A stretch of DNA of 8,880 nucleotides from an uncultured Asticcacaulis sp. (lineage in GTDB: Bacteria; Pseudomonadota; Alphaproteobacteria; Caulobacterales; Caulobacteraceae). How positions within the stretch are numbered: the first letter of the stretch is position 1; every line of letters starts with the position of its first letter. The DNA lies in NCBI GenBank assembly GCA_946480125.1, contig CAMLIY010000124.1, positions 1 through 8,880 of the forward strand. The letters are read 5' to 3'. Shown in pieces: positions 2,532 through 5,321 of this stretch. The position numbers and the translations under genes are program-made. The notes beneath the pieces were generated by a model that ran no database searches, was not told the origin of the DNA, and was given only the letters and a program-made list of their open reading frames with translations.

Positions 2532-5321
2532 CTACCGTTCCTCTATATCATTTTTGTCAAACGTCTGGTTAACCGCTTCCGATTTTTTACGATTGCCAAA
2601 TGGCACGACCACCAGATTATCAGTGGCTGTGCCGCGGGCGAAACCTTTTGAGATCAGCTGCGAAGCCGGCATGGCGTTAATGGGTACATTATCTGTCTCA
2701 GGCAAATCATCGCCATGGAAATAACCTTGCCCTAAGCCATCGGCATTCAATTCAGCCGGATCGGCATTGGAAAGATCGTCGCGGTTAAGATAGGAAATCG
2801 CCAATTCCCTGAAAATGTAGTCCAGGATAGAGGTTGCCGATTTAACACGATCATTGCCGGTAACCGGGCCGGCGGGTTCGAAGCGTGTAAACACATAGGC
2901 CTCGACAAACTCTTCCAACGGCACCCCGTATTGCAGGCCTATCGAGATGGCGATGGCAAAATTATTCATCAGTGAACGGAAGGCGGCGCCTTCCTTGTGC
3001 ATGTCAATGAAAATTTCACCGATCGATCCATCCTCATACTCGCCCGTATGAATATAGACCTTATGTCCGCCCACACCGGCTTTTTGGATATAGCCTTTGC
3101 GGCGATCCGGCAGTTTGGTGCGGGTACGCTCGCGTTCAACAATCTTTTCAATAATGCGGGGCACGGGCTTTTCAATGCCTGGTTCAGGCACCGGACGCTT
3201 CGGGGTTTCGTCAACTTCGGGAATATCTAGAGAGAAATCAGACGGCGCGTCGGCCCGAATAACTGAAACCGCGCGCAGATCCGAACTGGCGGCCCGCGAA
3301 TAGATTTTCATAACGTCGGAAACGCCCTGATTCCACGCCAGATGAAAAGGCGCCGTGGCGGGGGCATCGATCAGGCTTTCAATTGATTGGCGCACATGCA
3401 TTTGTGCCTTGCGACCCAGCGGCGCGAGCAATTGCCAGGTTTTATCTGAAATCTGGCGTAGGGCTTCAGCGTTATTGCGACCGAATATATATGCCGAGGC
3501 TTCCTCAATTTCGTTTGAGGAGAAACCCATAATTCCCAACAAGTTAAGGGCCGGATCGGAGAGATCGCTTTCACTCAGGCCCCAGATGTCCTGGATAAAG
3601 GCCTCATCAATATGGCGGACAGAAAATACCTCTGCCAATGATGATGAGGTGAGCAGGGCCGATTCCAGACGATTGAGTTCGAACTCGCTCAAGCCTTTGG
3701 ATTTCAGACTGGCGATATTGATATGCGGTGCATCGATCAGGCTGCGGCTGCCAAGCAGAACGCCGCGCACATCGCCCCAATCTTGAGAAATGGCGTTCAG
3801 GCCCCTGATAACACATGACTTAATTGTCGGTACAAGGACGCCATCATCGGTTTCCATCACGGTCAAGAGATCAACAACGCCCTTGTCTCCCATGGAAACA
3901 CCCAGGCGAAGCGACAGGTCTGGGTCGTCAAACAGAGCGGTGACCTGAACATTGCGCAAGCCGCTTGTCTTGACCAGTTTCAGGGCAGACTGAGTCAGGT
4001 CAAGGGCGGCGGATTTTAAATCAGCATGACCCTTTAGTGCGGTTATCCGGTAAAGACGCTGGCTGAGGCGATCAGTCTGCTCCGCCTTATCATTAGGGAA
4101 GGTGGCGTAGGGCGCCATCTGCGCCGCAAGCGAAGCCGACGCATGGACGGCGGCCGCTTCTAACAGAGCAAAAATATGGATGGCCATATCAATGCCCGCC
4201 GCTTCATTTAAACTCAGGCCCTGGCTCATTATGGCCTCACCCAGTCCGGCAATAGTCAGGGCCACGGGACGGGTTGCGGATCGGCGGATGCTATCATTCA
4301 GCGTATCGGAAAAGCCAATCGCGGCTTCGATATCGAGTGCCAGGGTCCACAGCCCGGCGACCTCAATAAAGGCATCAACATCGAAAACGCCATCTTCCGT
4401 GATAAGGGACTCAACATTGATTGCCGCGCGGGCACAGAAATTTTGCGCTTCCAGGAATTCAGCATCCTGAGGTGAAAAAACGACATGCAAGCTGCTGGTT
4501 TCGAGGGCTGTTTCCGCCGCCAGCGTCGCTGTGGGATCACCCGCGCTCAGGAGATCGCGCTGACCAATCAATACCCGCAGGCGCTGCCTTTCACCGCCCG
4601 GCGCAGGTGTACGCGACCAATCCAGTGGCATTACGCCGTCATTCAATTGGATTTGCCGCGCGATCAAAGCATCAGACGCCCCCAAACGCCGGGCATTGGC
4701 GGCCGCACGCGCAAGAGCCGTATTGTGTTTCAGACTGGCGCGCTGGGCGCCTTCGGCACGCTGGATGGCACTGGTAATGTCGTTCAGCGCCTGGGCCAGA
4801 CGGGTCTGTGCGGCGGCCGATAGTGATCTGGCGCGGGCTTCAACGAGAAGCTGCCTGATAGTATTTTGGCACGCATGATCGTCAAGATAAAGCGGGGCAC
4901 TGTCAGCGGGTTCCGGCAGCCAATCGCCGGCCGTAGGATGTATGCGATGTCCGGAACTCAATCCGGTAGCCGGCGCCGCCATACCCGATAAAAGTGTTGC
5001 TTCCAAAATATCTGCGAATTCTGTAGCGGTGGTGTCATCAGGAAAATATCCAAGCCTCAGTCCCCATTGCGCAAGACGGTGTGCGTAGCGCGCCAGTGCC
5101 CCGTTGAAAGCGAGGTCTTCGGTATTCACGGATATAGTGCCGGCACCTCCCGGCAGGTCACATGGTAGCGAATCAGCCCAATCCAGCCAGGCTTCCGCCT
5201 GAGCCGAGGTTAGGTCACGCGGACATAAAGTCTCGGTGAATCCGTTTGTCCGTTCTATTTCGCGCCGTTCCAGATCAGACTTACTAACGCGCGCACGCAG
5301 GGCTGGAAGCTGATACGGCAT
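2532..5321 (-). CDS. NrdJ-like ribonucleotide reductase pseudoenzyme with intact TSCPD domain
   Basis: A 929-residue cytosolic protein that follows class II (adenosylcobalamin-dependent) ribonucleotide reductase NrdJ along its length, judged against remembered family sequences. The N-terminal part (about 75-125: LAQWGLRLGYF, then SGMAAP) parallels LAYWGWKGGYF and RQMGAPNSPQ. Residues 280-345 parallel the active-site region, but NPCxE reads SPQDA (283-287), losing Asn, the radical Cys and Glu. At 350-405 (RPVALTIAGLGEAIMSQGL) it parallels RTLGLGYANxGxLLMxxG. At 455-475 the substrate loop PTGTIG is replaced by DDPDLSLRLG. Residues 530-680 follow the rest of the barrel. After a Pro/Glu linker (690-735), the TSCPD domain (about 737-855) is close to standard NrdJ. 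The final 75 residues lack the Cys-rich redox tail; the whole protein has only five Cys (33, 54, 151, 296, 503). The start is supported by AAGGA 7 bases upstream. There are no internal stops, so it is a maintained gene and unlikely to be active as a reductase. Confidence 0.9.
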   Translation of the reverse strand: MPYQLPALRARVSKSDLERREIERTNGFTETLCPRDLTSAQAEAWLDWADSLPCDLPGGAGTISVNTEDLAFNGALARYAHRLAQWGLRLGYFPDDTTATEFADILEATLLSGMAAPATGLSSGHRIHPTAGDWLPEPADSAPLYLDDHACQNTIRQLLVEARARSLSAAAQTRLAQALNDITSAIQRAEGAQRASLKHNTALARAAANARRLGASDALIARQIQLNDGVMPLDWSRTPAPGGERQRLRVLIGQRDLLSAGDPTATLAAETALETSSLHVVFSPQDAEFLEAQNFCARAAINVESLITEDGVFDVDAFIEVAGLWTLALDIEAAIGFSDTLNDSIRRSATRPVALTIAGLGEAIMSQGLSLNEAAGIDMAIHIFALLEAAAVHASASLAAQMAPYATFPNDKAEQTDRLSQRLYRITALKGHADLKSAALDLTQSALKLVKTSGLRNVQVTALFDDPDLSLRLGVSMGDKGVVDLLTVMETDDGVLVPTIKSCVIRGLNAISQDWGDVRGVLLGSRSLIDAPHINIASLKSKGLSEFELNRLESALLTSSSLAEVFSVRHIDEAFIQDIWGLSESDLSDPALNLLGIMGFSSNEIEEASAYIFGRNNAEALRQISDKTWQLLAPLGRKAQMHVRQSIESLIDAPATAPFHLAWNQGVSDVMKIYSRAASSDLRAVSVIRADAPSDFSLDIPEVDETPKRPVPEPGIEKPVPRIIEKIVERERTRTKLPDRRKGYIQKAGVGGHKVYIHTGEYEDGSIGEIFIDMHKEGAAFRSLMNNFAIAISIGLQYGVPLEEFVEAYVFTRFEPAGPVTGNDRVKSATSILDYIFRELAISYLNRDDLSNADPAELNADGLGQGYFHGDDLPETDNVPINAMPASQLISKGFARGTATDNLVVVPFGNRKKSEAVNQTFDKNDIEER

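Follow-up and report, generated by a model that had tools for sequence, protein, structure and literature searches.

What is a ribonucleotide reductase (RNR) kept for once its active site is gone? The question is raised by a stretch of 8,880 nucleotides (hereafter the window) from an uncultured Asticcacaulis sp. (contig CAMLIY010000124.1), in which an open reading frame (ORF) of 929 amino acids encodes what is, by its sequence, a homologue of the alphaproteobacterial class II RNR, NrdJ. The original prediction, made from the window itself, held that the whole NPCxE active-site motif of this protein had been replaced and that the protein was a kept pseudoenzyme. Here we describe this protein, pseudo-NrdJ, its relatives in the Caulobacteraceae and beyond, and the conserved cysteine-rich domain (CRD) at its C-terminal end. 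The gene and its parts are as follows.

2532 to 5321, minus strand: pseudo-NrdJ (class II RNR pseudoenzyme), 929 amino acids; uninterrupted ORF, profile matches and alignment
3147 to 5321, minus strand: degenerate N-domain and barrel (residues 1-725), drifted in sequence, with a predicted RNR fold
4461 to 4475, minus strand: SPQDA (residues 283-287) replacing NPCSE; alignment with true NrdJs
2742 to 3116, minus strand: CRD core, TSCPD or IscU-like domain (residues 736-860); profile, alignment and model
2592 to 2741, minus strand: conserved post-CRD tail (LNADGLG ... SKGFARG...DNLVVVPFG); alignment
2535 to 2591, minus strand: position where the zinc-ribbon cysteine tail would stand, missing in the window protein; comparison of 120 listed homologues

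Loss of the active site

In a MAFFT alignment with 40 true NrdJs, out of 59 complete ones, SPQDA was placed on NPCSE, inside the interval 4455-4485 that had been singled out, and the 13 residues up to the Cys296 anchor aligned free of gaps. The register claimed for the motif is thus right, although Cys296 was a lucky anchor, since this residue is unique to the window protein among 97 aligned homologues (87 have Ala). The claim that only the Pro is kept is true of the window protein and does not extend to the family, in which the old motif positions retain Pro in 80 of 97 proteins, Asn in two, Glu in one and the catalytic Cys in none. NPCxE occurs in 0/120 listed homologues, and the family consensus at the old active-site loop is a new conserved motif, F-[DS]-P-x-D-A-E. 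SPQDA leads into a predicted helix (284-292) and stands about 200 residues closer to the N-terminus than the NPCSE of true NrdJs.

The loss reaches far beyond the motif. Some 150 residues in the first half of the barrel, with the HACF, GSGTGSN, LSGGG and AIKSGG stretches, are absent or replaced, and the same is true of the SGQNxNNSVR stretch, of the loop PTGTIG and of the cysteines near the C-terminus; we take HACF to hold a redox Cys, PTGTIG to be the phosphate loop and NxNNSVR to be a stretch of the working enzyme. No Cys is found in residues 504-929. Two CxxC motifs (the zinc-ribbon cysteines) are kept in 38/120 listed homologues, and the other 82, the window protein included, have no CxxC in their last 70 residues. 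The Pfam barrel profile PF02867 matches only residues 293-463, the TSCPD profile PF12637 matches residues 748-841 (41.5 bits against a cut-off of 22.8), and NF005736, the NCBIfam model of alphaproteobacterial NrdJ, gives 365.6 bits where its cut-off is 1737; a barrel fold of the RNR type is predicted to be intact. Lacking the thiyl-radical Cys of NPCxE and the other catalytic stretches, the protein would not be a class II RNR in the enzymatic sense, and its status as a pseudoenzyme is near certain. The closest species-named homologue among the matches listed is from Asticcacaulis taihuensis (77%).

Retention under selection

G002 is, by its locus L005, the genome of Brevundimonas lenta, which makes its family the Caulobacteraceae. 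Of the 199 genomes in this family, 190 match the protein, three of them weakly (G012, G056 and G075). NPCxE was not found in the 120 listed proteins, in 30 loci (L104-L133), in four cases with long frames or in 18 short loci, two of which (L012 and L017) are truncated at the contig start so that the motif region is uncovered. L017 (Brevundimonas sp. UBA2388, 2-2122) looks chimeric: a true-NrdJ-like barrel at the contig start joins a pseudo tail of Brevundimonas type next to AspS, and the two were probably misassembled through the conserved CRD.

No listed match contains an internal stop, and the gene is not in decay. From 438 pairs that passed the dS filter, the 60 of lowest dS were examined, and we relied on the 14 with dS <0.5 (five species groups) because dN/dS (omega) is unreliable here past a dS of about 0.5; many of the more distant pairs, for example with L008 or L133, show a whole-gene omega of 0.6-0.9, with values >1 in some parts of the barrel. 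In the 14 close pairs, whole-gene omega was 0.05-0.11 and CRD dN was 0-0.013, and omega was well under 1 in the part before the CRD as well. By these comparisons the predicted barrel fold and the CRD core are both under purifying selection, and a protein that is non-catalytic and yet selected is very strongly indicated, as had been predicted.

The cysteine-rich domain

While the barrel has drifted, the CRD has not. Against the CRDs of true NrdJs, each of three pseudo lineages shows an identity of 0.79, the same value that true NrdJs show among themselves, whereas barrel identity is 0.24, 0.20 and 0.27 against 0.61 for true NrdJs. The window CRD retains every one of the 30 positions with at least 85% conservation across 72 CRDs. 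A first homologue search had returned 120 listed CRD-bearing pieces of 135-219 amino acids, 73-94% identical to the query and of little diversity, and CRDs from viral contigs were taken in their place. Beyond the core, residues 863-910 show 59% identity among 30 pseudo-NrdJs.

The class II RNR CRD consists of an IscU-like part and a zinc finger; the window protein has the TSCPD/IscU-like core and no zinc-ribbon half. The structure model of the CRD is confident (pLDDT 93), and a Foldseek search with it gave no match at E <0.001 (best 0.088), with IscU, SufU and CsdE among the weak matches; the Fe-S ligand cysteines of the IscU family are missing. A search of solved structures with the CRD profile gave a single match, at chance level. 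Section 2.4 of Burnim et al. (PMC9669993) states that the literature assigns no role to the IscU-like domain. We consider it likely that the function of pseudo-NrdJ resides mainly in the CRD.

Upstream NrdR-type sites

The gene also keeps paired predicted NrdR-type operators. In the window, a matrix scan found three sites.

5414 to 5429, minus strand: NrdR-box-like site 1, TATCAACATATTGTGG
5382 to 5397, minus strand: NrdR-box-like site 2, ACACCAGATTTATTGA, 32 bp from site 1
5351 to 5366, minus strand: NrdR-box-like site 3, ACGCTACATCTGGGGG, 31 bp from site 2

Seven nrdA promoter sites from five Caulobacteraceae genomes went into the matrix. They were chosen for their resemblance to an NrdR consensus, so the matrix does not define NrdR boxes independently. 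Box pairs at 31-32 bp were found upstream of 42/45 pseudo genes (p up to 0.05, 200 shuffles each); in the other three the start was wrongly set, and pairs scoring 15.0-21.7 are present in the correct intergenic region. A threshold of 12 bits was reached in 40/41 upstream windows of pseudo genes (L005, L009, L015 and our window stand outside this set) and in 0/1312 control windows. These counts are not independent events because the genomes are related. Among true NrdJs, 22 of the 37 tested have such pairs. NrdR sites are described in parts of PMC9110341 as a pair of boxes spaced by about three turns of the helix, with conserved GC pairs at 9/18 and 40/49, and the pseudo-nrdJ promoter shares this spacing; what would set it apart within the NrdR regulon is a target protein without catalytic residues.

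The class I enzyme

Class I NrdA is present in all Caulobacteraceae genomes sampled (10/10 and 20/20), and a full-length alpha-type NrdJ was not found in these 10 and 20 genomes. Six of six NrdA frames tested, from three Caulobacteraceae, two Hyphomonas-type genomes and G418, pass the NF006577 and NrdE_NrdA cut-offs, and NrdA carries its own C-terminal CxxC in 13/13 distinct sequences, a set that includes no Asticcacaulis. Each of 18 genomes has one ATP-cone, within a frame of 158-215 amino acids, and the four tested are NrdR; the class I enzyme thus seems to be without a dATP/dGTP-sensing step, since the sole ATP-cone per genome belongs to NrdR or to an NrdR-sized frame. An extra RNR of 773-779 amino acids occurs in two of the first 10 Caulobacteraceae genomes (L081 in G010 and L082 in G006), and L082 is of the NrdJ_Z type with NPCGE and a cysteine tail.

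Probable repeated inactivation

Among 289 members of the class, listed CRD frames are at least 1170 amino acids long with nine exceptions: five cut by contig ends, two from Caulobacteraceae, and those of G383 and G418. In the family of G383, whose homologues are named Hyphomonas, 99/101 genomes match and all frames are short (641-1056 amino acids); NPCxE was not found in any of its 120 listed proteins, fragments among them. These Hyphomonadaceae proteins have dropped the N-domain and much of the barrel and retain the CRD at the same identity. NDUFA12 is syntenic in 16/17 loci, and NrdA is complete in 18/21 genomes, in pieces in two and absent in G550. Two pairs fell within the usable dS range, amounting to one biological pair, with omega of 0.09 before the CRD. 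Two Hyphomonas-type genomes (L177 in G383 and L178 in G526) have a further PF02867 frame, of 582 and 611 amino acids, besides NrdA. G418 is a third case: its deletions differ from the rest, its NrdR pair is present and its NrdA is complete. The usual neighbours of its apparently independent pseudo-NrdJ (L144, L175, L176) are missing, and a second copy lies at a contig edge.

Related genomes with a true NrdJ (G588-G593) carry NrdA in 6/6 cases, one in pieces, so that the class I RNR probably came first. In RpoB trees the true-NrdJ genera stand next to the Hyphomonas group, with three changes without G589 and four with it; Robiginitomaculum, Hellea and Euryhalocaulis, which have a true NrdJ, group with the Hyphomonadaceae (support 98/97 with G589, 97/97 without). 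G589 (L019) is a metagenome-assembled genome with a true NrdJ and an RpoB inside the Hyphomonas group, either a mixed bin or a real retention. A single loss common to Caulobacteraceae and Hyphomonadaceae was rejected by the approximately unbiased test on RpoB at p = 1.6e-7 with this possibly mixed bin; the rejection is only moderate, since p = 0.037 once G589 is removed, and the AspS tree gave p = 0.046. Independent losses are supported because the deletions differ and because true NrdJs occur in genera grouping with the Hyphomonadaceae. NrdJ inactivation with the CRD intact has therefore probably recurred independently in Hyphomonas relatives and in one further genome. AspS was set aside as a species marker in favour of RpoB, as the Hyphomonadaceae scatter in its tree; this conflict (loci L193-L211) is probably due to aspS transfer.

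Possible functions

Our favoured reading, which we hold at slightly less than even confidence, is that pseudo-NrdJ is a regulatory partner that responds to deoxynucleoside triphosphates (dNTPs) and acts via its CRD. The selected product would be the C-terminal CRD, with the barrel serving as a scaffold, and the protein would be produced at low dNTPs, when NrdR derepresses the RNR genes. It could tune dNTP supply, and the simplest way would be for it to assemble in a nucleotide-dependent manner with itself, with NrdAB or with another dNTP enzyme. It would provide the dATP/dGTP-sensing step that the class I enzyme seems to be missing. In a true NrdJ, according to passages of PMC5704485, the higher oligomers induced by dATP/dGTP depend on the CRD. 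That the function lies in dNTP control is a tentative assignment, not quite a probable one. The full proposal, that the IscU-like CRD has a catalysis-independent job and that at least three alphaproteobacterial lineages independently shed the reductase and kept a dead NrdJ, produced along with the RNR regulon, as a dATP/dGTP-sensing regulator for a class I RNR without an ATP-cone, is doubtful as a whole.

Several points weigh against dNTP sensing. Class I RNRs often function without an ATP-cone. Only 4/17 Hyphomonadaceae loci reach 12 bits for the NrdR pair, one barely (13.4; control maximum 11.9), so that dNTP-linked expression is not general among pseudo-NrdJs. The CRD is dispensable after NrdJ loss, as 107 of the 289 alphaproteobacterial genomes gave no match to it and 182 gave one, among the matches listed, and many lineages are without both NrdJ and CRD, which speaks against necessity. 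In P. aeruginosa, the separate CRD subunit is described in parts of PMC4520616 as having thiol exchange, rather than sensing, as its main role.

Rather unlikely, in our view, is an ancestral second function of the CRD outside dNTP supply, such as binding of a nucleic-acid or sulfur/iron-trafficking partner, that has outlived reductase activity; CRD conservation equal to that of true NrdJs in three pseudo lineages, the confident model with its weak IscU/SufU/CsdE matches, and the lack of a reported role in the section cited above would all fit it. We think it unlikely that the barrel shell acts as a structural partner or decoy, dimerising with or capping another protein, with the CRD conserved only through packing there: the predicted intact barrel, the low omega before the CRD and the new motif at the old loop agree with such a role, but the Hyphomonadaceae have shed the N-domain and much of the barrel at unchanged CRD identity. 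Quite improbable is an electron donor in trans, in which the cysteine tail of the CRD would pass electrons to class I NrdA. The CRD of a true NrdJ can reduce the site of another subunit (passages of PMC5704485) and 38 of the 120 listed homologues keep the zinc-ribbon cysteines, but NrdA has its own CxxC, and the idea is unlikely for the window's group because the tail cysteines are gone. A relic in slow decay, suggested by the large deletions and the zinc ribbon lost in the window's group, is barely credible given frames free of stops, matches in 190/199 genomes and the low omega of close pairs.

Relation to known systems

Pseudo-NrdJ shares its locus, fold, CRD core and, in part, operator pairs with the long alphaproteobacterial NrdJ (NF005736/PRK07562; structure 7b9p/7b9q from Rhodobacter sphaeroides), but is of about 910-970 rather than 1200-1300 amino acids and lacks NPCxE, other catalytic stretches and, in the window, the cysteine tail. 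It resembles NrdJb, the CRD subunit of split NrdJa+b (portions of PMC4520616 and PMC5704485), in that its CRD would work without a catalytic barrel on its own polypeptide; NrdJb, however, serves an active NrdJa, whereas pseudo-NrdJ is found in sampled genomes without a full-length alpha-type NrdJ and its CRD is still joined to a dead barrel.

The viral R1 pseudoenzymes, such as herpesvirus M45 and BORF2, re-use the RNR large-subunit fold beyond ribonucleotide reduction, and the BORF2 complex 7rw6 is among the fold matches of the window protein. Those proteins are class I and viral, while pseudo-NrdJ is cellular, class II and family-wide with a conserved CRD. No report of a family-wide pseudoenzyme from a cellular RNR was found in the open-access literature on RNR pseudoenzymes, TSCPD, NrdJ with Caulobacter, and Asticcacaulis RNR, and, among the terms looked up, inactive forms, Caulobacter and the cysteine-rich domain have no mention in the RNR phylogeny paper PMC9531940. 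Pseudoenzymes as such are already known; a family-wide one of cellular RNR origin, as these sequences suggest, was not found described there.

These lineages have in effect run a domain-separation experiment. The group counts the cell-cycle model Caulobacter among its members, and the part that has not drifted is the very domain without a reported role. With a tail domain and DNA-precursor control sites both kept on a dead enzyme, the role of the tail becomes testable. In Caulobacter, raised dNTP levels delay S phase entry, according to parts of PMC12186491. Database names such as 'vitamin B12-dependent ribonucleotide reductase' and 'ribonucleoside-diphosphate reductase', given to these proteins, would lead one to expect, wrongly, a functional B12-dependent route to dNTPs.

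Locus and descent

The neighbours of pseudo-nrdJ in the window, identified individually and by synteny, serve as syntenic markers.

53 to 1834, plus strand: aspS
1956 to 2450, minus strand: pentapeptide-repeat protein
5550 to 5963, plus strand: NDUFA12 homologue, divergent neighbour
5975 to 6712, plus strand: DUF2155 protein
6733 to 7374, minus strand: aat (leucyl/phenylalanyl-tRNA protein transferase)
8015 to 8878, minus strand: accC-like biotin carboxylase, partial

The order AccC-Aat-DUF2155-NDUFA12-[gene]-pentapeptide-AspS is common to pseudo gene loci and true NrdJ loci. With L017 excluded, NDUFA12 lies in the fetched flank of 45/47 pseudo loci (15/17 of L001-L025 and 30/30 of L104-L133) and of 28/62 true-NrdJ loci, several of which are short contigs. 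The whole order is present at the true-NrdJ loci L044 (Robiginitomaculum), L045 and L074, with the pentapeptide gene at L044 only. Because its neighbours match those of true NrdJs, the gene is nrdJ itself in its ancestral place and no stray paralogue. Judged by gene order and alignment, pseudo-nrdJ is a vertically inherited alphaproteobacterial nrdJ whose catalytic residues are gone across the sampled Caulobacteraceae, with class I NrdA present.

A 133-amino-acid ORF between aat and accC (7443-7844, minus strand) has no Pfam match. The pentapeptide-repeat gene stands beside aspS and nrdJ in many Caulobacterales.
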